Positions 22,163-37,750 of a DNA stretch of 64,000 bases are shown one piece after another. The stretch covers positions 1 through 64,000 of the forward strand of contig NZ_BMVF01000004.1 of the NCBI RefSeq assembly GCF_014650575.1. The letters are read 5' to 3'. The position numbers and the translations under genes are program-made. Numbering within the stretch: the stretch's first letter is position 1; the number at the start of each line of letters is the position of its first letter. This stretch comes from Streptomyces naganishii JCM 4654 (GTDB taxonomy: Bacteria; Actinomycetota; Actinomycetes; Streptomycetales; Streptomycetaceae). Below the pieces are notes generated by a model. The model ran no database searches, had not been told where the DNA came from, and saw nothing but the letters and a program-made list of their open reading frames with translations.

Positions 22163-22165
22163 TCC

Positions 22166-22456: not shown

Positions 22457-23845
22457 TCACGTCTTCGACCGCGATGCGCGGGCCATGAGGACCAGGAGGA
22501 GTCCGCAGGCGGCGACCAGGATCCAGCCCGGGCGGGACGCGTGGGCCAGCCCTGCCGGGGTGCTGTTCGCCACCAGGCCGCCGGCGACGGCGATGCCGAG
22601 CGCGGAGCCGACCTGCCGCGCGGTGGAGGTGATCGCTCCGGCCACGCCGGCCCGGGCCGCGGGCAGCCCGCTGACCGCGGTGTTGGTGATCGGCGCATTG
22701 GCGAAGCCGAACCCGATGCCTGTGAGCAGGTAGGCGAGCAGGAGCTGCGGCAGGCTCGTGTGCCGGTCGAGCCCGACCAGGCAAAGGCCGCCTGCCATGG
22801 TGAAACCTCCGGCCAGCGTCAGTGGCAGCCGGGGTCCGAGGCGGCCGACAAGACGGCCGGACCAGGGGGCGCAGACGGTTGCGCCGACGGCCATGGGCAA
22901 CGTCGCTGCTCCGGCGGCCGGTGGCGTGAGTCCCCGGGTCTGCTGCAGGTAGAGGGTGTTGAGCAGCAGTGTCACGTTCAGGGCGACGAAGACCGCTACG
23001 GCACCCAGGACCGCGCTGCTGAACACCGGGCTGCGGAAGAGCCGCAGATCCATCAGCGGTTGGCGTCGGCGGCTCTCGGCCCATATGAATCCGACGGTCG
23101 CCATGGAGGCGAAGGCGTAGGCGGCCAACGCGGCAGGCGCCGTCCAGCCGATGCGCGGCCCTTCGATGAGGACGCCGACCCAGACCCCGATGACCACGGT
23201 CAGCAGGACCTGGCCTGGAACGTCGAGCCGCTGCGCCCGAGGTCCCCGGGACTCCGGCACGAACACGGCGCTGAGCACCAGGGCGGCCACGATGACGGGA
23301 GCGTTGATCCAGAACAGGGCCCGCCAGCCGAGCGCCGCGACGAGGGCGCCGCCCGTGACCGGACCGACGGCCATGCTGAGCCCGAAGACCGAGGCCCAGA
23401 TACCGATCGCCTGCGCTCGCTCCCGCGGGTCGGGCATCGCGTTGACCACGATCGCGAGAGCCACGGGACTGAGCATCGAGGCGCCGATGCCCTGAACGGC
23501 GCGGGCCGCGACAAGCGCGCCCACCGAAGGAGCCGTTGCACAGACCAGCGAAGCAACACCGAACACCATCAGGCCGGACTGGAACACCCTGCGGCGTCCG
23601 AAGCGGTCCGCCAGCGCACCGGAGGAGATCAGCAAACCGGCCAGGACGATGGTGTACGCGTCCACTGTCCACTCAAGACCGCGCGTCCCGACGCCCAGGC
23701 CGCGCCCGATGGCCGGCAGGCCCACGTTGACGATGGTGGTGTCCAGCCCCACCAGAAACATGCTCAGGCAGCAGACAGCCAGCACCGTCCAGCGTCTGCG
23801 CGCGCTCAGAGCGGGCGCAGCAGGATGAGTCGTCGTCGCAGTCAC
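22457..23845 (-). CDS. MFS drug exporter, DHA2 (14-TM) family
   Basis: A 462-residue transporter with many hydrophobic helices. It begins RWTVLAVCCLSMFLVGLDTTIVNVGLPAIG (motif D1 of EmrB/QacA-like proteins), then GALADRFGRRRVFQSGLMVF (motif A) and ARAVQGIGASMLSPVALAIV (motif B). Proton-coupled export of a toxic small molecule across the plasma membrane is expected. The GTG at 23845 follows GAGAGGC. It is divergent from an XRE-cupin regulator across 107 bp, the usual arrangement of an efflux pump with its own repressor. Confidence 0.9.
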   Translation of the reverse strand: MTATTTHPAAPALSARRRWTVLAVCCLSMFLVGLDTTIVNVGLPAIGRGLGVGTRGLEWTVDAYTIVLAGLLISSGALADRFGRRRVFQSGLMVFGVASLVCATAPSVGALVAARAVQGIGASMLSPVALAIVVNAMPDPRERAQAIGIWASVFGLSMAVGPVTGGALVAALGWRALFWINAPVIVAALVLSAVFVPESRGPRAQRLDVPGQVLLTVVIGVWVGVLIEGPRIGWTAPAALAAYAFASMATVGFIWAESRRRQPLMDLRLFRSPVFSSAVLGAVAVFVALNVTLLLNTLYLQQTRGLTPPAAGAATLPMAVGATVCAPWSGRLVGRLGPRLPLTLAGGFTMAGGLCLVGLDRHTSLPQLLLAYLLTGIGFGFANAPITNTAVSGLPAARAGVAGAITSTARQVGSALGIAVAGGLVANSTPAGLAHASRPGWILVAACGLLLVLMARASRSKT

Positions 23846-23916
23846 GGGTTGCCTCTCGCATCCGGGAGTACGTGCCCGGCAAGACTCAGTCAGGCTGACC
23901 AGCACCGACCAGCACT

Positions 23917-23933
23917 TTTGCGAGGACCGCAAA
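23917..23933. promoter_or_regulatory. Candidate operator between MFS and XRE genes
   Basis: Inverted repeat TTTGCG/CGCAAA separated by AGGAC, 20 bp upstream of the XRE start. A direct repeat GACCAGCAC (23898-23906 and 23908-23916) precedes it. This is a likely regulator site; short arms make it tentative. Confidence 0.4.
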
Positions 23934-23952
23934 GAACCGCACACTGAGCCAC

Positions 23953-24597
23953 ATGGACGCGGAACTGGAGCAGATCCTCGACGGCATCGGACCACGGCTG
24001 CGCACGCTGCGCCGGGACCGAGGACTCACCCTGGAGGCACTGGCGGCCACGACCGGCATCTCGGTGAGCACACTGTCCCGTCTCGAATCCGGCAGACGGC
24101 GCCCAACGCTCGACCTGCTCATCCCGCTCGCGCGGGCGCACCGCGTTGCGCTCGACCAACTGGTGGCCGCACCGGCCACCGGTGATCCCCGGGTGCATCT
24201 CACGCCCGTGCGCAAAGGCAACGGCAGCATCCTCGTGCCCCTGACCCAGTACCCGGGCCGGGTGCAGGTGTTCAAACACGTACTGGCTCCCCGCGAGCCG
24301 AAGTTGGTGACGCACGACGGCTACGAATGGCTATACGTCCTCGCCGGCCAACTACGCCTCATCCTCGGAGAACACGAATGCACGCTCCACGCGGGAGAAG
24401 TTGCCGAGTTCGACACCCGAGAGCCGCACTGGTTCGGTCCGGCGGACACGAGTGCCGTAGAGATCCTGCACCTGTTCGGGCCACGAGGCGACCAAGCCGT
24501 CGTCCGCACGAGACCCCCGGCCACCCATCCCACATCGACGACCACACCCCCACCGCCGGAACTCTCCGGATACGTCGACACCGACGCCGGACGCTGA
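23953..24597 (+). CDS. XRE family regulator with C-terminal cupin domain
   Basis: A 214-residue protein. The N-terminal HTH spans residues about 13-67 (LRTLRRDRGLTLEALAATTG, ISVSTLSRLESGRRRPTLDL). The C-terminal cupin barrel spans about 110-180 (HDGYEWLYVLAGQLRLILGE, HTLHAGEVAEFDTREPHW), a likely ligand-sensing part. It ends in a Thr/Pro-rich tail. By position it controls the divergent DHA2 exporter. It also sits 163 bp upstream of the LanB-like operon and might influence it, although nothing in the sequence shows this. Confidence 0.88.
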   Translation: MDAELEQILDGIGPRLRTLRRDRGLTLEALAATTGISVSTLSRLESGRRRPTLDLLIPLARAHRVALDQLVAAPATGDPRVHLTPVRKGNGSILVPLTQYPGRVQVFKHVLAPREPKLVTHDGYEWLYVLAGQLRLILGEHECTLHAGEVAEFDTREPHWFGPADTSAVEILHLFGPRGDQAVVRTRPPATHPTSTTTPPPPELSGYVDTDAGR

Positions 24598-24661
24598 GCC
24601 CGCACCGAACGCCACCGCGTCCTCTCTCCCTCTACGGCATCGAATGATCGCCATCTTTGGC

Positions 24662-24689
24662 TTGATGTCAGTGAACCCGCGCATATGCC
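24662..24689 (+). promoter_or_regulatory. Weak candidate promoter for the LanB-like operon
   Basis: TTGATG (24662-24667) and TATGCC (24684-24689) are separated by 16 bp and lie about 70 bp before the first operon gene. The match to the vegetative consensus is modest; Streptomyces promoters vary greatly. Confidence 0.25.
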
Positions 24690-24741
24690 ATTGAAGACGC
24701 CTCGTCGCATGACTAGCGTCACGCCGTGTTGCGGGCACTGA
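24685..24741 (+). CDS. Very short ORF upstream of LanB-like gene, candidate peptide
   Basis: An 18-codon frame, MPLKTPRRMTSVTPCCGH, ends 19 bp before the first LanB-like gene. It holds Ser, Thr and two Cys at the C-terminus, as a modified peptide might. There is no clear ribosome binding site, it is far shorter than usual leader-bearing precursors, and it overlaps a candidate promoter. I list it only because the operon otherwise lacks a precursor gene; chance is the more likely explanation. Confidence 0.12.
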   Translation: MPLKTPRRMTSVTPCCGH

Positions 24742-24760
24742 GCGGCCAACGGGGGCAGTC

Positions 24761-27358
24761 ATGGACGGGCGCGGACAGCATCAGGACGACACAGGGCTTG
24801 GGGGCGGCAGCACCCTGATCCACGCCCTGGCCGACCATTCCCATGGCCGTGACGAGTGGGCGCTCGCCCCGATCATGCTGCTGCGCCACGCCGGATTTCC
24901 GTGCTCTCTCCTGCAACAAGTTGCCGATTCGTCGACTCCGAAAGCCGCTGATGCCGTACTGACCTGCTGCGACAAGGCGCTTCAGATCGGGCAACAGTTG
25001 AAAGCAGTGCTGCGCGAGGAGCGCGTGGGCACGAAGGGGGACATCGCCTCCGGGGTGGGCATGCTGCGATTATTCCCGCCGCGGGACCTCACGCGCTTGG
25101 AGGCGGACCTCAGCCCGGCGTCCATGGAGATTGTCAGGCGCTACCAGGACGCGGTTCTGGCCCTGGACAGCGTGTGGACTGCCTTCGAGAAGGATCACGC
25201 TGCCGCGCTGGCTCGCGGTCGCGAGACTGTCGTACGCCTCTTTCGCGACCCCGCACTCCAGCAGGTTCTGCTCCTGTCGAACGACGCACGCTTCGAGGAG
25301 TTCGCCGGCTGGATCGACGGTGGCGGAGGGGGATCGGACGGCCACGTCAAGCGCATGACCGACCTGCTCACCATGTACCTCCAGCGGGTCACGACGAAGA
25401 ACGAGACACATTCGCACTTCGGTCCTCTCGCGGTGGCCCGGTTGGCACCCAACACCGCAGGGATCTCCTGGTCCACCGGTCCGCTCCGTCGCATCGCCTT
25501 CCTGAGCCACTGGGCAGGTGAGGCAATCGCCGAGGCGCTCAGCAGCCGCCCCGAGCACTTCGAGACCGTACGTCCGCGACGGCGGCCGCTCGCGTTCAGC
25601 CAGGACTCGCGTATCCGGTTGTACGCGTTCGAGACGCGGACTGGCATGCCGGACGACTGGCGCTTCGTCGAAGTGACGGCTGAGACGTTCGACGACGACC
25701 AGTCATGGCTGTGGGAACGGTGCGACGGCGAACGCACGGTGGCACAGTTGCGTGCCGCGTGGGCGCGACGCGACGGCACTCCACCCCGCCGTACCTTCGA
25801 CGAGGTATTGCATGAACTGGTGCGCAAGGACTGGCTGACAGCCTGCTGGGAGATTCCCGTCGGGGCCGCCGATCCCCTCCATGCGCTGACCGCGTACCTG
25901 GAGGACGGGGCAGCCGATCTCGCGGTCGTGCGGTGGTTCGCCGACACGCTGCGGCAGTTCGCCGACGGCCCGATCCAGGACCGTGCAGCTCTGCTGGGCC
26001 GCCTCAAGGAGAACTTCGAGGAGATCAGCGGGACCGCGGCCAACCGGTCCCAGGGACTGCACTACTCCGACCGGAGCGTCCTCTACGAGGAGGCGTACAG
26101 CCCAGTCAGGAGCATGGCCCTCGGCCAAGACGTCGAGAACGTCATCAGTCGCGAACTGTCGGTGGTCTACGACCTGACGCTCCTCGCTCCCCGGCTCCGT
26201 GTCCGCCGCGAGCAGGAGATCCTGCACGGCTGGATGAAGGAACGTTTTGGCCTGGGGAACCCCGTCGCACTCCAGCACTTCTACGCCGGCTTCTTCGAGG
26301 ACAAGCCGCGGCTCGCCCGAGAGTGCGAGGAAGTGGAACGGGACATCGCGGCGCTTGACCACGAGGTCACGAACGTACTGCTGACAGGGACCACCGGCGA
26401 TCAGCACGAGACGGTCGTCGACCGGGACCGGCTGGAGGAACTGCTCGCACGCCATCCGGCCACACCACCCGCGCTGTGCAATCCGGACGTCATGCTTGCC
26501 GCGCGGGACACCGACGCGCTCGCCAACGGCGACTTCCTCGCCGTCGTGGGCGACTGCCATGCCGTCCGCGAGGCGCTCACCCACTCCAGCTTCGCCCCGA
26601 TGATGCAGGCGGAGGCTCCGGACCTGCTGGACGAGGTCTACGCGCGGTACCAGAGCCTGCTGGACGAGGACGAGGTGCTGATCGACCTCTCCCGCGCGCA
26701 TCCGGACAAAACTGCCGCCCAACTGACCTATCCCTGCCCGGACCTGGAGGTCCACGGACTGTCCCCGAAGAGCCGGGACGCCGTGCTTCACCCCCATCAG
26801 TTGTACGTCGTGGCAACCGCCGAACGCCTGGAGCTCCGCGCGCGGGGAGTGGAGGGCCGGCTGAAGCTGCTCGCCCCGCTGGCCGGCGGACCCAGCATCC
26901 GTCAGGACCCGTTGTCCCCGTTCGCCTTCCCCCGGCACTTCGGAGGCGTCGGAATACGCAGCATCGGCCACGACCATCTGCCCCGCATCCGCTGCGGCCG
27001 CGTCGTCCTCCACCGGGAGCGCTGGCGCATACCCGCGAACGCCCTTCGCGGATGGAGCCCCGGGACGCGCCCGGCAAAGGGGGATGCGGCCGAGTTCGCC
27101 GCCGCCCGCAAGCTCCGCCGTGGCCTGAGCCTGCCCCGCCACGGCTTCATGAAGATCCCCGGCGAGCCGAAACCGGTGTACGTCGACTGGGAGTCACCTC
27201 TCATCGTCAGACAGATCTTCCGTCTCGCCCGGAGGTCGGATTCCCCCTTGGAATTCAGCGAAATGCTCCCGTCACCGGAACAACTCTGGCTCGAGATCGA
27301 CGGAGAACGCCACACGAGCGAACTGCGCTGTGCGGTCTTCTCCCGCGGTTCCAGCTGA
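24761..27358 (+). CDS. Short LanB-like protein 1 (lantibiotic dehydratase N-domain; PEARL-like)
   Basis: An 865-residue protein with the Lanti_dehyd_N architecture: PIMLLRHAGFPCSLL at the start; LQRVTTKNETHSHFGPLAVA near residue 215 (the KNETxxxFGP block of actinobacterial LanB-like proteins); GTAANRSQGLHYSDRSVLYE; AGGPSIRQDPLSPFAFPRHF; PRIRCGRVVLHRERW; GEPKPVYVDWESPLIVRQIF; and FSEMLPSPEQLWLE near the end. Full LanB proteins glutamylate Ser/Thr using Glu-tRNA and then eliminate through a separate SpaB_C domain; none is attached or encoded nearby. That fits split LanB enzymes or PEARLs, which attach amino acids from aminoacyl-tRNA to a peptide C-terminus. It carries an in-frame TTA codon at 25070, implying bldA dependence. 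The ATG follows GGGGGC. Confidence 0.82.
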   Translation: MDGRGQHQDDTGLGGGSTLIHALADHSHGRDEWALAPIMLLRHAGFPCSLLQQVADSSTPKAADAVLTCCDKALQIGQQLKAVLREERVGTKGDIASGVGMLRLFPPRDLTRLEADLSPASMEIVRRYQDAVLALDSVWTAFEKDHAAALARGRETVVRLFRDPALQQVLLLSNDARFEEFAGWIDGGGGGSDGHVKRMTDLLTMYLQRVTTKNETHSHFGPLAVARLAPNTAGISWSTGPLRRIAFLSHWAGEAIAEALSSRPEHFETVRPRRRPLAFSQDSRIRLYAFETRTGMPDDWRFVEVTAETFDDDQSWLWERCDGERTVAQLRAAWARRDGTPPRRTFDEVLHELVRKDWLTACWEIPVGAADPLHALTAYLEDGAADLAVVRWFADTLRQFADGPIQDRAALLGRLKENFEEISGTAANRSQGLHYSDRSVLYEEAYSPVRSMALGQDVENVISRELSVVYDLTLLAPRLRVRREQEILHGWMKERFGLGNPVALQHFYAGFFEDKPRLARECEEVERDIAALDHEVTNVLLTGTTGDQHETVVDRDRLEELLARHPATPPALCNPDVMLAARDTDALANGDFLAVVGDCHAVREALTHSSFAPMMQAEAPDLLDEVYARYQSLLDEDEVLIDLSRAHPDKTAAQLTYPCPDLEVHGLSPKSRDAVLHPHQLYVVATAERLELRARGVEGRLKLLAPLAGGPSIRQDPLSPFAFPRHFGGVGIRSIGHDHLPRIRCGRVVLHRERWRIPANALRGWSPGTRPAKGDAAEFAAARKLRRGLSLPRHGFMKIPGEPKPVYVDWESPLIVRQIFRLARRSDSPLEFSEMLPSPEQLWLEIDGERHTSELRCAVFSRGSS

Positions 27359-27406
27359 CCGCTCCACTTCGAGGATGCCCCATCATCATCGAGCAAAGGG
27401 ACGACC

Positions 27407-28747
27407 ATGCCCAAGAGCTGTATAGTCCAACTTCCTTTCCCCTCCAGTCATGACCCGGACCCCCACCTGTCGAGCTACTACGAGGACTACGACCGGAGGT
27501 TCCGGGCGTTACTCCCCGAATACTTCATCCCGACCGACGGCTTATGGGAAATGCCACTGTGGGTCGCTCATCTGACGGCCCTGCTGGACACCGCGGGCAT
27601 CGACTCCGTCTTCCGTGACCTGTCGAGGACGCCGCCGGAGCCGGACGCCTGCTCCGAACCGCTGCTGGAGGCGACAGCCGTCGGCGATCTGGTCCTCATG
27701 TCACCTCTCGCCCAGAACTTCCGCCTCGCTCTGGACGTGGCCAAGCACCTGGAGCACGCCGGACGCCGCGTCGTCCTCGGCGGGAACATGGCCCCGCTCG
27801 CCCCGGACGGCGCCGTCCACGCCGTGCACCGCGGCCAGCTCGACGCCACCCTCGTGCGCAGGCTCGTGGGGCTCGCCTCAGGAGCGGGCGGGGACCTGGA
27901 GAAGCCTCTTCTGCCCGGGTTGGCGGCCGAGCGGATCAACTGGGCACCGGACTACCGCCATCTGGACGGCTACGGGGGCCGAGTTCCCCTGCTGCGGCTC
28001 AACGCCAGCCACGGATGCCTGTACCAGTGCTCGTTCTGCGGCGACGCCTGGAGCAAGCAGCTCACCCTTGTCGAGAAGAGTGCCCTCGAGCAGGAAGTGG
28101 ACGAACTCACCGCCCGGTTCCCGGACACCCGGCTCTTCTACATCGGCGACAAGACGTTCGGCCAGTCACGCGAAGCAGTCGCCAACTTGCTGGACGTCTT
28201 CCGTGACCGGCCCGGATACCGGTTCATCGTGCAGACACATGTGATGCAGGTGAAGGACTGGATCGTCGATGCCATGCTGGAACTCGGCGTCGTCGCCGTG
28301 GAACTCGGCTTCGAGTCAGCCGACTCCCAGATGCTGAAACGGCTCAACAAGCTCTCGCGCGGCCTCGATGACTACACCACGAAAATCCACATGCTGAGCG
28401 ACACCGGTCTGAAGGTCGTGCTCAACATGATGGGTGGCCTCGACGAGGAGACGGAAGCCGCACACGGCCAGACCGTCGACTGGATGCGGCAGAACAGTTC
28501 GGCGCTGTGGCTCTTCAACCTCTACAACTTCGTTCCCTATCCGCTCACCCCGGACTTCCCGAGGCTGCGTGAGCGCATATTCAACTGGGACTTCGCCGAC
28601 TGGCGGGAGGACGTACCCGTCGTCTACCGGCCGCAGCACCTGTCCCCCGAAGCGAGCTGGGATCTGTTCCAGGACAAGATCGCCACCGCGCACGACATCA
28701 TCCGCACCCCGGTGACCGTTCCCACGTCCTTGGCGCAGGTGAAGTGA
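27407..28747 (+). CDS. Radical SAM protein with B12-binding-like N-domain
   Basis: A 446-residue protein. Residues 1-170 resemble a cobalamin-binding Rossmann domain (LVLMSPLAQNFRLALDVAKH, AGRRVVLGGNMAPL) but no DxHxxG was seen, so lower-axial His ligation is doubtful. Residues about 195-400 form the radical SAM barrel with the cluster motif C204xxxC208xxC211 (ASHGCLYQCSFCGD), VVAVELGFESAD and KVVLNMMGG. Class B-type enzymes catalyse C-methylation, ring formation or rearrangement on unactivated carbons. It starts 48 bp after LanB-like 1 with an AAAGGGA site and ends 1 bp before the arginase-like gene. TTA codons at 27509 and 27542 suggest bldA control. Confidence 0.85.
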   Translation: MPKSCIVQLPFPSSHDPDPHLSSYYEDYDRRFRALLPEYFIPTDGLWEMPLWVAHLTALLDTAGIDSVFRDLSRTPPEPDACSEPLLEATAVGDLVLMSPLAQNFRLALDVAKHLEHAGRRVVLGGNMAPLAPDGAVHAVHRGQLDATLVRRLVGLASGAGGDLEKPLLPGLAAERINWAPDYRHLDGYGGRVPLLRLNASHGCLYQCSFCGDAWSKQLTLVEKSALEQEVDELTARFPDTRLFYIGDKTFGQSREAVANLLDVFRDRPGYRFIVQTHVMQVKDWIVDAMLELGVVAVELGFESADSQMLKRLNKLSRGLDDYTTKIHMLSDTGLKVVLNMMGGLDEETEAAHGQTVDWMRQNSSALWLFNLYNFVPYPLTPDFPRLRERIFNWDFADWREDVPVVYRPQHLSPEASWDLFQDKIATAHDIIRTPVTVPTSLAQVK

Positions 28748-28748
28748 C

Positions 28749-29843
28749 ATGACCGAGCTCCCCGACTTCGAAGCACTGCAGAACAGCGTCAAGGCCGAGG
28801 ACTTCGAGGCGGACCCGCTGCCGGGGTGGGCCGGCGTCGCGACGCTCTTCGGTACCCCCACCACCAGCGCCGACCGGGTGGACGTGGGAGAGGACGGCTG
28901 GGTGGTGTCCGGTGTTCCCTTCGACGCCACCGCCAGCTCCCGGCCGGGAGCCGCGGAAGGGCCCCGGGCCATCCGCCAGGCAAGCCTGGTCTTCTCCAGC
29001 TATCTGACCAGTCTGGGCCAGTGGCGGATGCTGGACACCCGCACCGGCCAGGTCTTCCGCTACCGTGCCCCCCAAGTCGCGGACGCCGGTGACCTGCACG
29101 TCTACCCGACGGACACCGTGCGCACCTTCCAGGCCGTGGCGGCGGAGAGCCGCCGGCTGAGCCAGTCGGCGCCGCGCCTGATCTTCCTCAACGGTGACCA
29201 TTCGTGCACCTTCCCCTCGTTCGCCGGCTTCCGTGCCGGGCGGCTCGACCGCGGCGCGGGGCGTGTGGGGTTCATCAACATCGACCACCACTTCGACTTC
29301 GGCAACTGGAGCACGCTGCACGGGCCCCTGTACCACGGCTCCAACTCCCGCAGGATCAGCGAGATCCCTCAGATGCGCCCGGAGGACATGGCCTTCGTCG
29401 GTGTCGGCGACGTGACCAAGTACGACCAGTACCGAGGGCTGATCGACAGTGGCTTCCACATCGTGCCGGGCTCCCAGATCGTCAGGGACGGCGCCGCCGC
29501 CGCGCTGCGCCCCCTCATCGAGGAACTCGGCTCGCGGTGCGACACGGTCTACGTCTCGCTCGACATCGATGTGCTCGACAGCGCCTCGGCGACCGGCACC
29601 GGCCATGTGACCATGGGGGGCATCAGCACCGGAGACCTCCTCGACGTCTACGAGGAACTCCGCGCGCTTCCCGTCGGCGCCGTCGACGTGGCGGAGGTGG
29701 CACCCCGCTACGACCCGTCCGGCGGCACCGCCCAGATCGCGGCACGCCTGCTCTTCGAGTTCCTGTTCCGCACCGAGTGCACACCGTCCACGTTCGCGCC
29801 CTGGTCCGACAGCGCCTCCGACGAACCCCTGGAGCAGCAGTGA
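28749..29843 (+). CDS. Arginase/agmatinase-fold enzyme, possible peptide arginase
   Basis: A 364-residue ureohydrolase-superfamily protein. All manganese ligand positions are recognisable: H151 in NGDHS, D179/H181/D183 in NIDHHFDFGN, and D272/D274 in SLDIDVLDSA, with E316 in DVAEVAPRYDP. Family members hydrolyse arginine, agmatine, guanidinobutyrate or formiminoglutamate. In RiPP loci, peptide arginases of this fold convert arginine side chains to ornithine. Its place between a radical SAM enzyme and an oxygenase in a LanB-like operon favours a biosynthetic rather than catabolic role, acting on a guanidino group or amidine of the intermediate. The stop overlaps the next GTG by 4 bp. Confidence 0.82.
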   Translation: MTELPDFEALQNSVKAEDFEADPLPGWAGVATLFGTPTTSADRVDVGEDGWVVSGVPFDATASSRPGAAEGPRAIRQASLVFSSYLTSLGQWRMLDTRTGQVFRYRAPQVADAGDLHVYPTDTVRTFQAVAAESRRLSQSAPRLIFLNGDHSCTFPSFAGFRAGRLDRGAGRVGFINIDHHFDFGNWSTLHGPLYHGSNSRRISEIPQMRPEDMAFVGVGDVTKYDQYRGLIDSGFHIVPGSQIVRDGAAAALRPLIEELGSRCDTVYVSLDIDVLDSASATGTGHVTMGGISTGDLLDVYEELRALPVGAVDVAEVAPRYDPSGGTAQIAARLLFEFLFRTECTPSTFAPWSDSASDEPLEQQ

Positions 29844-30892
29844 TATTCACGCCCACCGAGGCTCAGTTCGACTGCGCCGGTCTCGTCTCCGGGCCGCGGG
29901 ACCGGCGCGAGCAGGCGATGGACGACCTGGCCGGCGCGTCCGTCGACGTCATCCACCGGGTCGGCTTCGCGGTGTTCCGCATCGGCCGCCTGCGGCTGGG
30001 CGTCGAGGAGAGCCGCCGGCTGTCGACGGCCCTGGCCGAACGGATCCGCGCGGCGCTGATCGCCCGTGGCGCCCCCGCGAAGATGCGGTTGGAGATCGAC
30101 CGGCCGCAGCAGACCTACGTGCCTGAGGGGTTCTCCACCCGGACCCTGCTGCCCCACCACGACGGGCAGCACTGCTCGTACCTGACGCCCAGTCTTCAGG
30201 ACGCGCCCGACTGGGATCCCGCCTGGCGGGAGTTCGGCAGCTCCGGCTACACCACCACTCCCGCGCACAAGATGTACCAGGGCATCTTCCTGCCCGACGT
30301 GGGAGAAGGACTGAGCGTCACCACGTACTACGACTGGCTCGGCGTCATCGACGACGTGCTCGACCGGCGCGGAATCGACGCGGGGGACGATCGGTCGGCC
30401 ACGGCGGCACGCTGGATCGGTGACAACCTGCGCCGGGGGCTGGAGCGTCAGCCGGAGCACGGCTGCGCCTATCCGTCGTTCGGGGCCATGCTCGGGCTGG
30501 AGGAACCCCTGTGGCACGGCCTGTCCTTCCACCACAGCGAGGCCGTGCTGACGAAGGAGGAACGCATCCGCTACCCCGCCGCCGTACCGCTGGTCCAGCG
30601 CTGTGCCTGCGGGGAGTGCGAGGGCGAGGCGGCACGTCTCTTCTGCCACCAGGTGCTCATGGCCACCGGCCTGACCTGGACGCAGTTCCGGCGCCGTTGG
30701 GAAGTACTGGCACCGGGTGAGCAGTGCGACCTGCTGTTCGGCCACAACCTCACCATGCTCCACGGCGGCCTGGCCGGCGGCCCGGGGCGCGTCATCGAGC
30801 CACTGTGCCTGGTCATGGACACCCCGGCCGGCCCCGAGTACGAGCGATGGCTGGCCGCGTCCTGGCGGCGTTCCCTGCCCGGAGCGCAGTGA
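29840..30892 (+). CDS. Putative Fe(II)/2-oxoglutarate oxygenase-like protein
   Basis: A 350-residue cytosolic protein with a GTG start overlapping the arginase-like stop (GTGA). LLPHHDGQHCSYLTPS provides a possible HxD pair (H106/D108) and HNLTMLHGGLAGGPGRVIEP provides H308 and R317, in the order and spacing expected for a clavaminate-synthase/TauD-like 2-His-1-carboxylate site with an oxoglutarate-binding Arg. A Cys-rich loop (RCACGEC) lies near residue 255 and could bind a metal. I know no close homologue, so the oxygenase call is inference from motifs. It would hydroxylate or desaturate the pathway intermediate. Its TGA shares a base with the next ATG. Confidence 0.5.
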   Translation: MIFTPTEAQFDCAGLVSGPRDRREQAMDDLAGASVDVIHRVGFAVFRIGRLRLGVEESRRLSTALAERIRAALIARGAPAKMRLEIDRPQQTYVPEGFSTRTLLPHHDGQHCSYLTPSLQDAPDWDPAWREFGSSGYTTTPAHKMYQGIFLPDVGEGLSVTTYYDWLGVIDDVLDRRGIDAGDDRSATAARWIGDNLRRGLERQPEHGCAYPSFGAMLGLEEPLWHGLSFHHSEAVLTKEERIRYPAAVPLVQRCACGECEGEAARLFCHQVLMATGLTWTQFRRRWEVLAPGEQCDLLFGHNLTMLHGGLAGGPGRVIEPLCLVMDTPAGPEYERWLAASWRRSLPGAQ

Positions 30893-31827
30893 TGCGGGGG
30901 GTGTCCGCCACTCTCGCCGGCCCAGTCGACCTGCACCTGCACACCCGGCACTCCGACGGGGACGACGCCCCGGCCGAGCTGGCACGGCGCTGTGTCGACG
31001 CGGCGCTGCGCGTGGCCGCCGTGACCGACCACAACACCGTGGCCGGCATCGCCGCGTTCGAGCAGGCCATCGGCGGACGCCTCACCGTGGTGCCGGCTTG
31101 CGAGGTCACCGCCACCTGGCGTGGCGAGGAAGCCCACTGCCTGGCCTACTTCGTCGACCCCCATGACCTGCGGTTCCAGAAACGGATCGGTGGCATCCAC
31201 GACGCCGAACTGGCGTGGTGGCGCGCCTGGACCAACCGCGCGCAGGCCATAGAAGTGCCACTCACCTGGGACGATGTGGTGCGACGCCTCGGCGGCCACC
31301 GTGTGGCCTACGTCGGCGACTATCTCGCCCTGCTGCTGGAGGCGGCACACGGCGACCCGAGGTTCGCCGGCTACACGGCAGAGGCGTACGGCCCACTCGT
31401 GGCTGACTGGTGCCGTCCCGGCCGGCCGCTCCATGTGGAGCATCCTGAGAATCCCGACGTGGTCGACGTCCTGTCATGGATCGAGGAGGCGGGCGGGGTC
31501 GCCGTCCTGGCCCACCCGGGTCAGTTCGTGAGGGCCCTGGACGTTTCCGAGTGCGTGGCGCTGCTGGAGCCCTTGCGGGAAGCCGGACTGGCCGGGCTCG
31601 AAGTGTGGACGAGCTGGCACACGCCGGCTGACAGCCGCCACCTCGCCGATGTGTGCGACCGGCTCGGCCTCGTCGCGACCGCCGGGTCCGACTACCACGG
31701 GGTGCGGGTCAAACCCTGGGCGTCGCGGCCCGGCCTGCTACCCGAGCTCCCCGCGGATCCCCTGGCCGTCATCGACGCGCTGCACGACCGTCGTCCCGTC
31801 CGCACGAGCACCGAGGCAGGGCTGTGA
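30892..31827 (+). CDS. PHP-domain phosphoesterase
   Basis: A 311-residue protein of the polymerase-and-histidinol-phosphatase superfamily: PVDLHLHTRHSDG (H15/H17), VAAVTDHNTV (D46/H47), VVPACEVTATW (Glu ligand), VAVLAHPGQF and ATAGSDYHGV (late His and Asp ligands) complete a trinuclear metal site. Related free-standing PHP proteins hydrolyse nucleoside 3',5'-bisphosphates or phosphate monoesters. It lies in the LanB-like operon together with an APH-type kinase, so a phosphorylation/dephosphorylation self-protection cycle is conceivable. It is coupled at both ends: TGATG upstream and GTGA with LanB-like 2 downstream. Confidence 0.85.
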   Translation: MRGVSATLAGPVDLHLHTRHSDGDDAPAELARRCVDAALRVAAVTDHNTVAGIAAFEQAIGGRLTVVPACEVTATWRGEEAHCLAYFVDPHDLRFQKRIGGIHDAELAWWRAWTNRAQAIEVPLTWDDVVRRLGGHRVAYVGDYLALLLEAAHGDPRFAGYTAEAYGPLVADWCRPGRPLHVEHPENPDVVDVLSWIEEAGGVAVLAHPGQFVRALDVSECVALLEPLREAGLAGLEVWTSWHTPADSRHLADVCDRLGLVATAGSDYHGVRVKPWASRPGLLPELPADPLAVIDALHDRRPVRTSTEAGL

Positions 31828-34409
31828 CCAGCGTCAACGACTCCCAGACCACCACGAGCACCGTCCCGGGCGGAGCGTGGAGACTTGTACCGATCGTCGT
31901 GCTCCGGCAGGCCGGCTTTCCGATGGAGGCGCTCGACCCCCTCGTGGACACCGCCGCCGTCGATGAGGCCCACGCTCTCCTGGAGAGCAGGAGCCGGCTG
32001 ACTTCGCTGGCGAGGGACCTCAAGCCGGTGCTGCGGCAGCACCAGCTCCCCGGTTGCCCGCAGTCGGCGTCGCGGGTAGGCCAGCTACGGCCGCTACCCG
32101 GCCGTGAACTGCGGCGTGCCACCGCAGCACTGCCCGACGAGGCGGCGCGCACCCTGCACACCTACCAAGTGTCCGCACAGGAGTTCGCCAGGGAACAGGA
32201 GGCCTTCACCGCCCGGCACCGCACCCGGCTGGAGCACGCGAGAACCGCCGTGGCCGAGGCGTTCGGCGACGAGCGCCTGCGGCAAGTGCTGCTGCTGTCG
32301 AACGACGCCGCGTATCCGGAGTTCGCCGCATGGCTCGACACCTTCCAGGGGGACATGGGCCGGCACACCCGGAGGATGACCGACCTGCTCACGATGTACC
32401 TCCAGCGGGTGACGACGAAGAACGAGACCCACTCCCACTTCGGACCGTTCACCGTGGGCCGGGTCGGTGCCGTGCCGGGCATCACATGGACCTCGGAGCG
32501 GGAGATGGAGCGCCGGACGCTCTTCAGCCACTGGGCCGCGGAGAAGGTCGCCCAGAGCGCCGCGGCGGTCCCCGGCCTGTTCGACTTCGTACGTCCTCGC
32601 AGGCGCCCGCTGTCCTTCCTGCGCGACGGCCGTATCGACCTCTACGCGTTCACCACTCGGGACGGGCTGGACACCGACTGGAACTTCCAGCACCTCGGAG
32701 GCAAGGAGGTGGCAGCGCACGAGGAATGGCTGTGGCAGCGCTGCGACGGCGAGCGAACGCTGCGGGAGTTGCGCTCGGAGTGGGACACCGAGTTCGGTTC
32801 CCACTCCCCCGTCCCCTTCGACCAGGTGCTGAAGGAGCTGGTCGCGCGTGAATGGGTGGTCGCCGAGTTCGAGATCCCCGTGGGGGACCACGAGCCCCTG
32901 GCCGCCCTGCGCCGCCAACTGGACTCCGCTCCACCGGAGCAGGCCGGGCCGATTCTCTCGGCCATCGGTCACTTCGAGGAGGACCTGGCCCGCTTCGCGA
33001 AGCTGCCCCCTGCCGAGCGCCCGGCCGCGCTGGCCGCCACCAAGTCCAGGTTCGAGAAGCTGACGGGAACCGCCGCGAACCGCAACAGCGGCCTGCACTA
33101 CGCCGACCGGAGCATCCTGTTCGAGGAGGCCCACGGCGAGCCGGCCGGCCTGACCATCGGCCCGGACATCGCCCGCTTCATCACGGACGAACTGTCGATC
33201 GTGTACGAGACCGTGCTCGCGCGTCCTCGGCTGCGCATGCGGCGTGAGCTCGCCATTCTCACGCGGTGGGTGGCGGAGCGCTTCGGCGCCGATGTCGAGG
33301 TCCCCCTGGACCGCCTCTACTCGGAGTTCTTCCGGGACCGGCACGCCCTCGAGGAGCAGTGCGCCGCCGTCGAGGCCGAGCTGGCGGCGCTCGACCGGGT
33401 GATCACCGACGCCCTGCTGGGAGAGGGGGATGTGGACCGGCCGGAGGTCGTCGTGGAGCGGAACCGGATGGAGGCGATCCTCGCCGCCCATCCCCGTACG
33501 CCTGCGGCTGTCGTCGATCCGGACGTGCTGTTCGCTGCCACGAGCCGTCAGGACCTGCGCGAGGGCCGGTTCACCGCGGTGATCGGAGACTGCCACGCCG
33601 TCCGGGAGGTCATCACCCACACCAGCTTCGGCCCCTTGGTCCAGGAACGCGTCCCGGAGCTGCTGCCGGAGGTCTACGAGGGCTACCTGTCCTTGCTGGA
33701 CGACGGCGAGGTCCTCGCCGACCTGTCGCGGGGCCACCCGGACAAGTCGTCGACGCAGCTCGTCTACCCCTGCTACGACCTGGAGGTCTACGGCCGTTCC
33801 GGGCAGTCGCGCGACCGAGTGGTGCAGCCCTCCCGTCTGTACGTCGTGCTGCGTGACGGACGGCTGGAGCTGCGTGCCCACGGTGTCGTGGGAAGGCTGC
33901 GCCTCATGGCACCCCCGGCCGGCGGACCGAGCATCCGCCAGGACCCTCTCTCTCCGTTCGCCTTCCCGCGTCACTTCGGCGGGGCGGGGCTGGACGCCCC
34001 CGCCCTGGCGCACATTCCCCGTATCCGCTGCGGCCGTGTCGTCCTGCAACGGGAGACCTGGCGGGTCCCCGCCGCTCGCCTGCGTGGTGCGGCCGCCTTC
34101 GACGGCCCCACGGGACATACGGGCGGGGAGGAGGCCGCCGAGTTCGTCGCGGCCTGTCGGTTGCGCTCCGAGCTCGGCCTGCCCCGGCACGTCTTCGTCA
34201 AGGTTCCCAGCGAGCCGAAGCCGATCTACGTCGACTGGCACGCTCCGCTCCTGGTACGGCAGTTGTGCCGACTGACCGCACGAAAGGACGGCACCCTGGA
34301 GATCTCCGAAATGCTGCCCACGCCTGACCAACGCTGGTTGAGCGTGAACGGTCATCGCTACACCAGCGAGCTGCGGTGCGCCGTGTTCTCCTCGGGGGCC
34401 CCGAGGTGA
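31824..34409 (+). CDS. Short LanB-like protein 2 (PEARL-like paralogue)
   Basis: An 861-residue paralogue of the first gene: PIVVLRQAGFPMEAL start, MTDLLTMYLQRVTTKNETHS then HFGPFTVGRV, GTAANRNSGLHYADRSILFE, AGGPSIRQDPLSPFAFPRHF, PRIRCGRVVLQRETW, SEPKPIYVDWHAPLLVRQL and EISEMLPTPDQRW. The shared blocks indicate ancient duplication and parallel function. It also lacks an elimination domain. PEARL clusters such as those for ammosamide-type compounds carry several such paralogues, each adding a different amino acid; that precedent is the basis of my inference. The GTG at 31824 overlaps the PHP stop by 4 bp and its TGA overlaps the MFS GTG. Confidence 0.82.
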   Translation: MTSVNDSQTTTSTVPGGAWRLVPIVVLRQAGFPMEALDPLVDTAAVDEAHALLESRSRLTSLARDLKPVLRQHQLPGCPQSASRVGQLRPLPGRELRRATAALPDEAARTLHTYQVSAQEFAREQEAFTARHRTRLEHARTAVAEAFGDERLRQVLLLSNDAAYPEFAAWLDTFQGDMGRHTRRMTDLLTMYLQRVTTKNETHSHFGPFTVGRVGAVPGITWTSEREMERRTLFSHWAAEKVAQSAAAVPGLFDFVRPRRRPLSFLRDGRIDLYAFTTRDGLDTDWNFQHLGGKEVAAHEEWLWQRCDGERTLRELRSEWDTEFGSHSPVPFDQVLKELVAREWVVAEFEIPVGDHEPLAALRRQLDSAPPEQAGPILSAIGHFEEDLARFAKLPPAERPAALAATKSRFEKLTGTAANRNSGLHYADRSILFEEAHGEPAGLTIGPDIARFITDELSIVYETVLARPRLRMRRELAILTRWVAERFGADVEVPLDRLYSEFFRDRHALEEQCAAVEAELAALDRVITDALLGEGDVDRPEVVVERNRMEAILAAHPRTPAAVVDPDVLFAATSRQDLREGRFTAVIGDCHAVREVITHTSFGPLVQERVPELLPEVYEGYLSLLDDGEVLADLSRGHPDKSSTQLVYPCYDLEVYGRSGQSRDRVVQPSRLYVVLRDGRLELRAHGVVGRLRLMAPPAGGPSIRQDPLSPFAFPRHFGGAGLDAPALAHIPRIRCGRVVLQRETWRVPAARLRGAAAFDGPTGHTGGEEAAEFVAACRLRSELGLPRHVFVKVPSEPKPIYVDWHAPLLVRQLCRLTARKDGTLEISEMLPTPDQRWLSVNGHRYTSELRCAVFSSGAPR

Positions 34410-35650
34410 GCGCACGCACCGCCTTTCGCTTCAGTTCCGGCTATCACCACGTGATCGGTGCCGCGAGCGCGTCGGCGGTCGGCGACGGCATGCGTTTCGC
34501 CGCCCTTCCGCTGCTGTCCGCCGCGCTGCTGCACGACGCGTTCCAGGTGTCCGCGGTCACCGCGGCCACGACCGTGCCCTGGCTGCTGTTCGGTCTGCCG
34601 GCGGGAGCGTACGCCGACCGGTTCGAGCGCGGTCGCCTGATGGTCATCGCCGACCTGCTGCGCGCCCTGACGCTGATCGTCACCGTGGTGCTGCTCGCCT
34701 GCGACCGGCTGACGTTCTGGCCCCTGCTGATCGCGGCGTTCCTGCTGGGTGTCGGGGAGGTGCTGTTCGACTGCGCCTCCTTCGCGCTGCTGCCGAGCAT
34801 CGTTGCCAAGGAGAAGCTGGAGGCGGCGAACGGCCGGCTCTTCGCGGCCCAGACCGTGGGCCGCGATCTGCTGGGACATGTGCTCGGCGGTGTGCTCTTC
34901 GTGGCAGGCAGGGCGATTCCCCTCCTGCTCGACGCATTCTCCTTCCTGATGTCCGCAGCGTTGCTGACCGGCGTGCGCGGGCCGCAGCCCGAGCGGTCCA
35001 CGGCCAGGCCGCGGCTCCTGACCGACATCCGCGAGGGCCTGGTCCACGTGCTGCGTGACCCTCTGCTGCGCGCGCTGACTCTCTCCGCGGGCGTCATCAA
35101 CGCTGTCTACCTCGGACAGATCGCCGTCTTCGTCATCCTGGTGCGCGACGTGCTCGAGCTCCCGGACGCCGCATACGGGGCGCTTCTGGCCGCCGGAGCT
35201 GCTGGGGGCGTGGCCGGCAGCATGGCCGCAAGCCGTATGACCGGAGCGATGGGCCGGGTCCCTACCTTGATCGGAAACCTGGCCCTGATGGGTGTGGGAG
35301 GTCTGGCGGTAGCGGCGACCGACAGCGTGTACGTGGTCACCGTCGGCTACTGCGCCGCCGGGTTCGGCCTCATGGTCTGGAACGTCGTGGCCGTGTCCCT
35401 GCGGCAAGAGCTCATCCCGGATCGCCTTCTCGGCCGGGCGACCGGCGTGTACCGGTTGTTCGCCTGGGGGACGATGCCCCTCGGCGCGCTGATCTTCGGC
35501 TGGCTGAGCACGTCGGCGGGACCGCAGACGGCCTTCGCGGTCGGCGGCGCGGTCACACTGGTGATGTGCCTGCCCATCGCTTTCACCCTGCTGAAGGACA
35601 GCAGAATCACCGATGACCGCAAGACCCCCGAAGGTGTACATGATGAGTGA
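34406..35650 (+). CDS. MFS exporter (enterobactin-exporter-like, MFS_3)
   Basis: A 414-residue 12-helix permease. Visible are GAYADRFERGRLMVIADLLR (motif A between helices 2 and 3), FDCASFALLPSIVAKEKLEA ANGRL (split here; typical of MFS_3 proteins), VGRDLLGHVLGGVLF and AASRMTGAMGRVPTLIGNLA. The group exports siderophores and natural products. It starts GTG inside the end of LanB-like 2 (GTGA) and overlaps the APH-like gene, so it is the dedicated exporter of this operon. The C-terminus is polar (DRKTPEGVHDE). Confidence 0.87.
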   Translation: MSARTAFRFSSGYHHVIGAASASAVGDGMRFAALPLLSAALLHDAFQVSAVTAATTVPWLLFGLPAGAYADRFERGRLMVIADLLRALTLIVTVVLLACDRLTFWPLLIAAFLLGVGEVLFDCASFALLPSIVAKEKLEAANGRLFAAQTVGRDLLGHVLGGVLFVAGRAIPLLLDAFSFLMSAALLTGVRGPQPERSTARPRLLTDIREGLVHVLRDPLLRALTLSAGVINAVYLGQIAVFVILVRDVLELPDAAYGALLAAGAAGGVAGSMAASRMTGAMGRVPTLIGNLALMGVGGLAVAATDSVYVVTVGYCAAGFGLMVWNVVAVSLRQELIPDRLLGRATGVYRLFAWGTMPLGALIFGWLSTSAGPQTAFAVGGAVTLVMCLPIAFTLLKDSRITDDRKTPEGVHDE

Positions 35651-36551
35651 GCGATTCGCCGAATTGGACAGCCTGGCCGAACGGTGGGGCCTGAGCGACC
35701 TTGAACTGGTCGGTAAGGGCCTGGAGTTCTCCGTCTACAGGGCGCAGGGGCGCGACGGGCAGCCCGTCGCGGTACGGCTCGCCCATCGGCGGTTCGACTC
35801 GAACGCCAATGACCCCCATGTCGACACTCGGGCCCTGCTCCTGCAGGAGTACGAGATCGCGAGGCACCTGGCCGCCCATGGCCTGCCCGTCCCCGAGGCG
35901 AAGGAACTCGTCCTGGCGGACGAGCCGGCGTCCCCCGACGTACTGCTGTCCGCATATGTCCCCGACGACGGATCGCAACTCGACTCCTTCGCGCTCGGGC
36001 AGCTCCTCGCGCGGCTCCATCAGGTGCCGCCGCCGCGTCTGACGCCCGTCGCGTCGGAGGGAGTGCCCACGGCGAGTGCGATCGCCGCACGTATCGGGCG
36101 CCGTTGGGCCGAGATCGGCCACCTTGTCGAAGACTGGCCCGAACCGCCGGACGCGTCCCTCGTCACCGGACATCTCACCGGCCTTACCGAGGACAGCCTC
36201 CTGCACCTCGATGTCCGCAGCGACAACATCCGACGGCGGCGGGGGCAGACCGTCGCCCTGCTGGATTGGTCGAACGCCCTGCTCGGGTCCCCCTCGGCGG
36301 AGTTCGGGCGCTTGGTCGAGTACGCCCGGTATCCGGAGAACCAGCTCGACGTGGAAGCGATCCGCAGCGGATACGCGAGGACGGCAACGGTTCCGCCCGA
36401 CAGCGATCCGTGCTTGTTGGTGTGCCGACTGGACGCCGCACTGATGCTGGCGCTCGTCTTCCTTTCCGAGGCGCCCGACCCGAGCCGCGGGCCGGCGACA
36501 GCCGACCACGCACGAGAACTCGCGCTCAGGGTGACCGCACGTCACGCGTAA
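35640..36551 (+). CDS. APH-type phosphotransferase (aminoglycoside/choline kinase fold)
   Basis: A 303-residue kinase-fold protein. The N-lobe includes LVGKGLEFSVYRAQGRDGQP and VAVRLAHRR (ATP-binding Lys replaced by Arg in AVRL). The catalytic loop LLHLDVRSDNI gives the Brenner motif (H189, D191, N196), and LLDWSNALLG gives the Mg-binding Asp (D209). It phosphorylates a small hydroxylated molecule. As the last gene of the operon, overlapping the exporter by 11 bp, it could provide self-resistance or a biosynthetic phosphate. I chose the ATG at 35640 because a GAAGG site precedes it by 5 nt; an ATG at 35613 is possible. Confidence 0.8.
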   Translation: MMSERFAELDSLAERWGLSDLELVGKGLEFSVYRAQGRDGQPVAVRLAHRRFDSNANDPHVDTRALLLQEYEIARHLAAHGLPVPEAKELVLADEPASPDVLLSAYVPDDGSQLDSFALGQLLARLHQVPPPRLTPVASEGVPTASAIAARIGRRWAEIGHLVEDWPEPPDASLVTGHLTGLTEDSLLHLDVRSDNIRRRRGQTVALLDWSNALLGSPSAEFGRLVEYARYPENQLDVEAIRSGYARTATVPPDSDPCLLVCRLDAALMLALVFLSEAPDPSRGPATADHARELALRVTARHA

Positions 36552-36586
36552 CCGTTCATTTCACTTCGGACCTCTTCGGAGTAGCC

Positions 36587-36775
36587 ATGGTGAATCTCAC
36601 CCGTATCTGCACGAAGACGGGAGACGACGGCACGACCGCCCTTGGTGACGTGAGCAGAACGAGCAAGCTGGGCACGAGGCTTGCGGTCTACGCCGACGTG
36701 GACGAAGCGAACTGGGCCGCTCCCTGGAACCGTTACGAGCGAGCGACCTCTCGACGATCCAGCGGCAGGGCCTAG
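36587..36775 (+). pseudogene. Cobalamin adenosyltransferase (PduO-type) N-terminal stub
   Basis: The frame starts MVNLTRICTKTGDDGTTALG, then DVSRTSKLGTRLAVYADVDEAN, the near-invariant beginning of ATP:cob(I)alamin adenosyltransferases (TRxGDxGTT ATP site). After DEANWAA it diverges into Arg/Ser-rich sequence and stops at about 60 residues of a normal 190. The catalytic helices are missing. Being next to an operon with a B12-like radical SAM protein is suggestive but may be coincidental, since radical SAM methylases use methylcobalamin rather than adenosylcobalamin. Confidence 0.75.
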
Positions 36776-37482
36776 CCATGAAGCCAGACCCGCAGCGGAC
36801 CGATCGCCTCGAAGCCATGGCGGACGGCGGCATCCAGGTCCGCGCCGTGCTCATAGCCGACCACGGGCAGAGTCGGGAACAGGCGGTGCACTGCGTCCAG
36901 CACCACCGACCAGGCCCGGTCAGCGCCGCTCTCCACCGCGAAGACATTGGAGATTCCGACCACATGGTCGTTGCGGCTCGCCACCGCCCCAGCGGCCACC
37001 AGGCCGTCAGCGGAGTGTCCGACGAGCACGGACGTGGCTGGGTCATCGAGCAATTCAGGCCGGAAGAGGTCCGCGTTGCCGTCCCCGTCGTCCCAGGCAA
37101 GGGCCCAGGCCCGCAGCATGTCCGGGCTGCTGACCACATCCCAGGCGAGATCCGGTGAGCTGGTCGGCGCGCTCGCCGGGCGGTGGATCCACTGCGCGTC
37201 GAACAGCACCTTGAAGCCGGCCCCCGTCAGATCGAGGTCGGCGAAGCTGTCCTTGACGCAGGCGCCGGGAGCGGCGGTATCGATCCGGTCCACCAGCGCG
37301 GCGGCATCGGTCCCCGGCACCAGCGTCACCGCGTCGGGGTAGTACCGCGGCGGCCGGGACGGGAGGGCCCAAGCCTGCATCCCGAACTCGCCCGCCAAAC
37401 CGTGCGATCGGCACATCGACGCGCACCACTCGGCGTTGTTGCGGGCCGCGGCCCGGATCATGAACTGCTTCTTCTCGGTCAC
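36772..37482 (-). CDS. GNAT-like hypothetical protein
   Basis: A 236-residue protein with a GTG start. Its N-terminal half holds RAAARNNAEWCASMCRSHGL, RYYPDAVTLVPGTDAAALVD and KDSFADLDLTGAGFKVLFDA; its C-terminal half has VLVGHSADGLVAAGAVASRN, HVVGISNVFAVESGADRAWS and VVGYEHGADLDAAVRHGFEA, a pattern like a GNAT-fold protein (strand, central beta bulge, final GFEAIGPLRVW). It may be an acetyltransferase-like protein lacking a clear acetyl-CoA loop. It is convergent with the adenosyltransferase stub, overlapping it by 4 bp. Function unknown. Confidence 0.6.
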   Translation of the reverse strand: MTEKKQFMIRAAARNNAEWCASMCRSHGLAGEFGMQAWALPSRPPRYYPDAVTLVPGTDAAALVDRIDTAAPGACVKDSFADLDLTGAGFKVLFDAQWIHRPASAPTSSPDLAWDVVSSPDMLRAWALAWDDGDGNADLFRPELLDDPATSVLVGHSADGLVAAGAVASRNDHVVGISNVFAVESGADRAWSVVLDAVHRLFPTLPVVGYEHGADLDAAVRHGFEAIGPLRVWLHG

Positions 37483-37577
37483 GAGTGCGCATCATGGTCT
37501 GGACCGACCCGGTTCGTCGAACAGTTTCCGTCAGCCACAGGACGGAGGCCCCGGACACCCCGTCCAGCTCCTGGGCT

Positions 37578-37612
37578 ATTACGTGACCGCAGCCCTGGGA
37601 ATTACGTGACCG
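37578..37612. repeat. 12-bp direct repeat
   Basis: ATTACGTGACCG occurs at 37578-37589 and again at 37601-37612, 23 bp apart from start to start. It sits amid IS fragments and may be a duplicated target or a regulator site; no function is evident. Confidence 0.6.
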
Positions 37613-37639
37613 TCCACAGGCGGGGCGGACCCGGCGCAG

Positions 37640-37750
37640 GAGCTGGTCGGTGAAGTAGATCAGGGAGCGGTGAGCGAGGGCGGCCGCGTGCTGATGCAGC
37701 CGGTTCACCAGCGTCCCGTACCTGTGAAGGACGGACGCCGGGCCCACCGG
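37640..37750 (-). pseudogene. Possible transposase N-terminal scrap (IS5/IS1031-like)
   Basis: The minus frame gives LHRYGTLVNRLHQHAAALAH, RSLIYFTDQLLRRVRPACG, resembling the first helices of a transposase group with VYxxAxxLxxRTLxYLAxxIRRHR. Only about 35 codons remain and the match is loose. The element, if real, is dead. Confidence 0.35.

Follow-up and report, generated by a model that had tools for sequence, protein, structure and literature searches.

The operon described here occupies positions 24761–36551 of a 64,000-nucleotide stretch of contig NZ_BMVF01000004.1 of Streptomyces naganishii JCM 4654, referred to below as the window, and combines genes for two LanB-like proteins (LanB1 and LanB2), a radical S-adenosylmethionine (SAM) enzyme, an arginase-fold enzyme, a 2-oxoglutarate oxygenase-like enzyme, a PHP-family phosphatase, an exporter of the major facilitator superfamily (MFS) and an APH-type kinase. 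We put the chances at about even that it makes a sinefungin-type analogue of SAM from arginine, likely extended with amino acids taken from aminoacyl-tRNA by the two LanB-like proteins, acting as peptide aminoacyl-tRNA ligases (PEARLs). The gene set itself is real, conserved, and undescribed in the literature searched. An earlier model-made note on the window (the sequence-only reading) knew of no pathway with this set, and none came up in literature searches on LanB, radical SAM and arginase. The gene calls also confirmed its description of eight co-directional genes, of which the last seven are tightly packed: all eight lie on the + strand, LanB1 is followed by a 48-bp gap before the radical SAM gene, and at each of the remaining six junctions the genes overlap or stand 1 bp apart. 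A Pfam scan of the operon proteins returned Lant_dehydr_N for both LanB-like proteins, as well as Radical_SAM, Arginase, PHP, MFS and APH; the oxygenase had no Pfam match and no protease gene was found in the operon.

LanB1 (865 aa, 24761–27358, + strand; PF04738 E 2.4e-41) and LanB2 (861 aa, 31824–34409, + strand, start corrected to 31824; PF04738 E 9.9e-34) are about 50% identical and are the two PF04738 matches of the whole genome. Both lack the elimination domain, for which no match (PF14028) was found genome-wide, which agrees with the initial description of two paralogs without it. The ATP-site Asp and Arg of the PEARL TglB (Asp542 and Arg803), which are substituted in split LanBs, were used to recognise the PEARL type, with equivalence assigned by motif and spacing in an alignment that did not include TglB itself. 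D576, H600, K804, E854 and R856 (LanB1 numbering) are invariant in all 35 family sequences, the two from the window included. For comparison, a canonical LanB set from the genus was selected for the elimination domain; 24 of 30 loci (L067–L096) were used, read within the fetched flank, and two of them (L086 and L094) were dropped for want of an alignable LanB N-domain. In the remaining 22 sequences the Asp, His, Lys and Arg are each found in none, and the Glu is kept in all. The spacing of 50 between K804 and E854 is identical to that between Lys763 and Glu813 of BhaB7, as given in the part of PMC12945691 that treats this enzyme, and Y206 and R209 have the same spacing as its tRNA-binding Tyr205 and Arg208. 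PEARL-type activity of both proteins is a well supported prediction from these residues, and the suggestion that they are short LanBs of the aminoacyl-tRNA ligase kind was thereby strengthened. In Streptomyces roseifaciens, a 1241-aa protein (P0141) lists both PHP and Lant_dehydr_N, which suggests either a PHP–LanB2 fusion or a joined gene call.

The conservation of the operon was followed with a pattern scan using the oxygenase alignment, which gave 15 loci in a collection of genomes from 84,980 species. From the oxygenase, radical SAM and LanB searches, the window and 18 distinct loci (L033–L046, L056, L060, L061 and L101) were compared; L057, L058 and L059 duplicate L034, L038 and L037, respectively, and the counts leave out L047 and L006, which are decayed, as well as L097 and L098 (radical SAM enzyme 89% identical). 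The sequence-only reading had named a lack of conservation in other genomes as what would speak against it, and all eight genes were found in the same order in seven of the 18 other loci (L033, L034, L037, L038, L039, L040 and L056), belonging to Streptomyces, Actinacidiphila and Micromonospora. Seven of the eight are present in L061 (genome G077), with the oxygenase absent from both locus and genome; an amine-oxidase-like gene was noticed by eye upstream of this locus. The decayed copies in L047 and L006 (S. thermodiastaticus JCM 4840 and a second genome) consist of short oxygenase, LanB2 and MFS pieces next to one another. With a threshold of E 1e-80, the radical SAM enzyme was found in 3 of 305 genomes of the genus and 6 of 394 of the family, and this arginase in 3 of 392 genomes of the genus, the identical three. 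A close LanB pair is present in 2 of 295 genomes. The oxygenase had no match among plasmids, and its only match among 396 genomes of the phylum was the window's own copy.

The radical SAM gene occurs in 15 places (the window, L033–L041, L046, L056, L060, L061 and L101), in which the presence and absence of other genes was judged within the fetched stretches. The arginase gene accompanies it in all 15 and is adjacent to it in 14. The kinase is found in 13 (not seen in L041 and L060). Nine have the LanB pair, always together with the PHP gene, and in the remaining six no PHP gene was seen. Four (L035, L036, L046 and L101) contain FemAB-like or GNAT transferases; in L041 and L060 no ligase of either type was seen. 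The oxygenase gene belongs to 13 of the 15, although it was itself the query that led to 10 of these 15 places; of the four located by other means (L056, L060, L061 and L101), two contain it, and from the other two it is missing genome-wide. A joined tree of the radical SAM and arginase sequences from the 15 loci, with inner-node supports of 14 to 80 bar one and a very long Bacillus branch, was left unused.

Comparison of the loci shows an exchange of modules. A head module (radical SAM enzyme and arginase, or a CmoA-like protein) and a cap module (LanB, PHP and LanB, or a FemAB-like pair with a HAD phosphatase) are found in all four combinations, each accompanied by the oxygenase, the kinase and the exporter. 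In L101 the radical SAM, arginase and oxygenase genes are followed by the kinase, a FemAB-like gene, the MFS gene, a second FemAB-like gene and the HAD phosphatase, in this order. L042 and L043 (Acrocarpospora), which have neither radical SAM enzyme nor arginase, carry relatives of these FemAB-like, MFS, FemAB-like and HAD genes on the opposite strand, beside the oxygenase and kinase. L044 (Actinacidiphila bryophytorum), also without radical SAM enzyme and arginase, has LanB1, PHP, LanB2, MFS, CmoA-like, oxygenase and kinase genes; a 574-aa frame overlapping the end of its kinase gene (11670–13394 of that locus) has no Pfam match and looks by eye like an ATP-grasp ligase. The CmoA-like gene directly precedes the oxygenase in L042, L043 and L044 and is found in none of the 15 radical SAM places; its product matches CmoA in the PDB with E 1.3e-32. 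CmoA acts on SAM, and by analogy the SAM-derived head of the CmoA-type clusters suggests a SAM-like head in the window operon as well. On the cap side, FemAB-like or GNAT transferases are present where the LanBs are absent (L035, L036, L042, L043, L046 and L101): L035 and L036 have one FemAB-like gene and no phosphatase, and L046 has one GNAT-like gene, an ATP-grasp ligase and a histidine phosphatase. According to the passages of PMC12945691 on this fold, it includes aminoacyl-tRNA-dependent enzymes of antibiotic pathways.

The proposed route starts with the radical SAM enzyme (446 aa, 27407–28747, + strand; PF04055 E 2.8e-12), which would attach 5'-deoxyadenosyl to arginine at its delta carbon, probably with the help of cobalamin. 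Its CxxxCxxC motif, at position 204 in the window, is also present in all 14 relatives, and a possible N-terminal B12-binding-like domain (PF02310) gave E 0.0035, below the cut-off, with 4 of 5 scanned relatives matching, all below the cut-off too. HpnH and MqnE are precedents for the addition of a 5'-deoxyadenosyl radical, and arginine and ATP are incorporated into sinefungin; the carbon joined would be the delta carbon. The arginase-fold enzyme (364 aa, 28749–29843, + strand; PF00491 E 4.1e-57) would then hydrolyse the guanidine to urea, leaving adenosyl-ornithine, that is, sinefungin or a close relative. The metal-ligand motifs GDHS, DHHFD and SLDID are found in the window and in 13 of 14 relatives scanned; the Bacillus enzyme (L046) has only DNHFD and SIDID. 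The sequence-only reading had thought a guanidine-modified, arginine-derived product possible. Arginine remains the likely starting material, but a nucleoside, a SAM analogue, is more likely than a guanidine-modified product, given that the guanidine carbon would be lost in the arginase-fold reaction. The oxygenase (350 aa, 29840–30892, + strand), which has the HxD...H facial triad and 2-oxoglutarate-binding Arg of clavaminate-synthase-like enzymes, may oxidise adenosyl-ornithine or an arginine intermediate, a step that appears dispensable in some strains. Residues 255–269 of its family (P0004 and relatives) hold four near-invariant cysteines, CxCx2C...C, lacking in a few distant members; they could possibly form an extra metal site.

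LanB1 and LanB2, whose ATP-site residues are those of PEARLs, would phosphorylate a carboxylate with ATP and couple it to aminoacyl-tRNA. The kinase (312 aa, 35613–36551, + strand, with a start that may be slightly later; PF01636 E 8.3e-17), in which the motifs HLDVRSDN and DWS are present and for which a PDB sequence search gave no match, may hold the product in a phosphorylated form that does the producing cell no harm. The PHP protein (311 aa, 30892–31827, + strand, start corrected to 30892; PF02811 E 8.7e-8) would reverse this phosphorylation; its best NCBIfam match is the 3',5'-nucleoside bisphosphate phosphatase (E 9.7e-37, 126.6 bits vs a cut-off of 400), and the PHP phosphatase motifs are conserved. 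The MFS protein (about 34406–35650, + strand, from a GTG start overlapping the LanB2 stop; PF07690 E 3.8e-32) would export the product. A radical generated by the first enzyme, together with an arginase, offers a short chemical path to an ornithine–adenosine compound; within it, we infer which carbon is attacked, what cobalamin does, which step the oxygenase carries out and where amino acids are added.

A link to sinefungin also comes from the species in which relatives were found. Entries named Streptomyces incarnatus contain relatives of LanB2 (93% identity) and LanB1 (65% identity); the latter resembles the L061 form, so the two entries may be from different strains. S. incarnatus is a sinefungin producer (PMC4498112, PMC2216065), and sinefungin comprises ornithine and adenosine, as stated in the part of PMC2216065 that describes the compound. 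A SAM-like product is favoured because of the CmoA exchange and the occurrence in a sinefungin-making species. No sinefungin gene cluster came up in searches of the open-licence literature, and the sinefungin passages of PMC10491745 and PMC13034444 and passages of PMC12276006 name no biosynthetic genes.

Several observations weigh against this proposal. The connection with sinefungin depends on a single species, which caught attention only afterwards among the named matches; in S. incarnatus only the LanB relatives, with their unlike identities, were seen, and not the radical SAM enzyme and arginase. The other producer, S. griseolus, was not seen among the matches listed, which proves little with one name given per 90% cluster. 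Sinefungin as described carries no added amino acids, which leaves the LanBs unexplained unless the product is an extended form. The CmoA-like protein, whose best NCBIfam match is the carboxy-SAM synthase CmoA (E 3.5e-42), scores 144.7 bits vs a cut-off of 193.3, and what we take to be the position of the carboxy-SAM arginine of CmoA appears one residue off in the HMMER alignment; carboxy-SAM synthesis is not claimed for it. On the cap side, some of the FemAB and GNAT matches are below the Pfam cut-offs, and a FemAB-type enzyme acylates an amine where a PEARL extends a carboxylate, so that the exchange need not mean the same bond in the product. The PEARL residues are not specific to the operon, being also found in 12 of 25 further LanB-like frames of the genus (the longest open frame at each of 25 loci, of which 13 were wrong or incomplete and dropped), and the class is thus common there. 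The module pattern has exceptions: L061 lacks the oxygenase, L060 has only the radical SAM enzyme and arginase, no kinase or ligase was seen in L041, and L045 has only a relative of the oxygenase. The oxygenase is absent from the genomes G077 and G465 and is therefore not needed there to prepare arginine. For the radical SAM enzyme, the B12-binding domain never attains the Pfam cut-off in any sequence scanned, and the nearest solved relative is an apramycin-pathway enzyme. An Rfam scan of positions 22000–40000 matched no family, hence no cobalamin riboswitch.

The main rival is a product of arginine that is not a nucleoside, in which a radical SAM enzyme of the B12 type modifies arginine, by methylation or in some other way, before the arginase-fold enzyme converts it into an ornithine analogue, from which the PEARL-like proteins build a small peptide antibiotic. 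It accommodates the best NCBIfam matches of the radical SAM enzyme, which are the P-methyltransferase PhpK, ApyD and AprD4, all far below the cut-off, as well as the nearest solved structures of the arginase-fold enzyme, 3-guanidinopropionase and guanidinobutyrase, which act on guanidino acids, and the fold of the oxygenase, nearest to enzymes acting on amino acids and their derivatives, including the arginine hydroxylase VioC. It leaves unexplained the CmoA-like gene in the same slot, the nucleotide-type PHP phosphatase and the occurrence in a sinefungin species, and we regard it as unlikely, if still the strongest of the competing explanations.

A classical pearlin pathway is less probable again. 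Here LanB1 or LanB2 would place arginine at the C-terminal end of a scaffold peptide whose gene lies elsewhere, the remaining enzymes would modify it in position, and a protease would set it free. The PEARL residues fit this, as does a weak PqqD-like match (RiPP recognition element, RRE, RiPPs being ribosomally synthesised and post-translationally modified peptides) within LanB1, although at E 0.062 it is below the cut-off. Against it, the flanks of nine loci (1.8 to 5 kb, with a 3' flank shorter than 2.2 kb in four of the nine), compared for frames of at least 20 residues, contain no conserved short gene of the scaffold kind; such a peptide could be encoded elsewhere in the genome or be too short to detect. 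The comparison yielded only PduO, frames antisense to PduO, a short frame that runs antisense across the start of LanB1, and the helix-turn-helix portion of the upstream regulator. The operon moreover has no gene for a protease, and no LanB was seen beside the radical SAM–arginase pair in 6 of the 15 places. Of the earlier suggestion that PEARLs add amino acids to a scaffold peptide, the PEARL kind is retained; no scaffold peptide was found in these flanks, and in some relatives FemAB-like transferases take the place of absent LanBs.

That the operon instead encodes split LanB dehydratases of the lanthipeptide or thiopeptide type, glutamylating Ser and Thr of a precursor peptide, is very improbable: the AlphaFold model of LanB1 (pLDDT 88.8) has the split glutamylation enzyme TbtB (6ec8, E 1.6e-31) as its best PDB match and many database entries carry the name lantibiotic dehydratase, but the PEARL-type Asp and Arg in 35 of 35 sequences and the lack of an elimination domain led us to reject a split or classical dehydratase identity, the dehydratase residues and a SpaB_C gene elsewhere in the genome (0 PF14028 matches) that would have spoken against the sequence-only reading are both missing, and lanthipeptide dehydration by the operon is unlikely because the genome is without the elimination domain and no conserved scaffold or precursor peptide was found in the nine flanks. 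A PDB search with the LanB1 sequence alone gave a single chance-level match.

Returning to the sinefungin-type product, a ninth neighbour of the operon bears on how the adenosyl group might be supplied. A fragment of a PduO-type cobalamin adenosyltransferase gene (36587–36775, + strand; PF01923 E 4.8e-7, profile positions 1–36) lies directly downstream of the operon, its similarity stopping after about 42 residues and the stop codon being at 36775. PduO is intact after the operon in L033, L034 and L040 and stands before the arginase gene in the Bacillus fonticola cluster (L046); its presence at four loci including the window fragment, plus the Bacillus cluster, was counted in favour of the sinefungin-type product. 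An intact, unlinked PduO homologue is encoded on contig C8 of the same genome. In a bolder form of the proposal, which is improbable as a whole, PduO would load the adenosyl group of ATP onto cobalamin and an arginine radical would pick up the entire 5'-deoxyadenosyl moiety of adenosylcobalamin, much as a methylase picks up a methyl group; this radical adenosylase and the arginase would make a two-enzyme sinefungin route, and the PEARLs would turn its product into peptidyl-sinefungins made with tRNA, one of several SAM-mimic antibiotics with exchangeable heads and caps.

Directly upstream of the operon, at 23953–24597, is an XRE-family regulator with a cupin-like C-terminal part (by eye); about 70 residues of the regulator resemble genes upstream of the L034 and L056 operons. 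Apart from the operon, at 39319–43202, an adenylation-domain gene of the nonribosomal peptide synthetase (NRPS) type stands beside an opposite-strand GNAT plus ATP-grasp-like gene, again as judged by eye.

Sinefungin is a known inhibitor of SAM-dependent enzymes and a fifty-year-old antibiotic, and if the proposal is true, the operon gives candidate genes for it and makes the question directly testable. LanB-fold aminoacyl-tRNA ligases would then act on a nucleoside amino acid without a scaffold peptide, and the clusters, found in actinomycetes and a Bacillus, would form a family in which two routes to a SAM-like head combine with two routes of adding amino acids.

Among known systems, the PEARLs TglB, AmmB and BhaB7 (3-thiaglutamate and ammosamide pathways) share with the window proteins a LanB N-domain without the elimination domain, the ATP-site Asp, the Glu-x-Arg and the Lys-50-Glu arrangement. 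The operon differs from theirs in that no scaffold peptide gene was found, in the setting of radical SAM enzyme, arginase, oxygenase and kinase, and in the FemAB-like enzymes swapped in by its relatives. The clavulanic acid pathway, with proclavaminate amidinohydrolase and clavaminate synthase, likewise removes the guanidine of an arginine-derived intermediate with an arginase-fold enzyme beside a clavaminate-synthase-like oxygenase; the operon has no beta-lactam enzymes and carries radical SAM and PEARL-type genes instead. Sinefungin (A9145), from S. incarnatus and S. griseolus, links adenosine to ornithine, matching what the gene set is predicted to produce, and as described lacks added amino acids, unlike the predicted extended product. 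Closer in its use of a LanB-like protein is SnaE of Stackebrandtia nassauensis (threopeptin), which, according to the relevant parts of PMC10769383 and PMC11212132, attaches threonine to a small molecule and has no gene for a precursor peptide, the use of tRNA being its authors' inference. SnaE thus also extends a small molecule, but acts beside an NRPS and polyketide synthase (PKS) system, whereas the window operon has two LanBs and no NRPS-PKS. Finally, the FemAB/GNAT-type enzymes PacB, DhpH-C, DhpK and Orf11 are described in the corresponding part of PMC12945691 as transferring amino acids from aminoacyl-tRNA onto small antibiotics, the nucleoside pacidamycin among them; transferases of this type are unlike LanBs in fold and chemistry, are absent from the window operon and are present in some of its relatives that are missing the LanBs.

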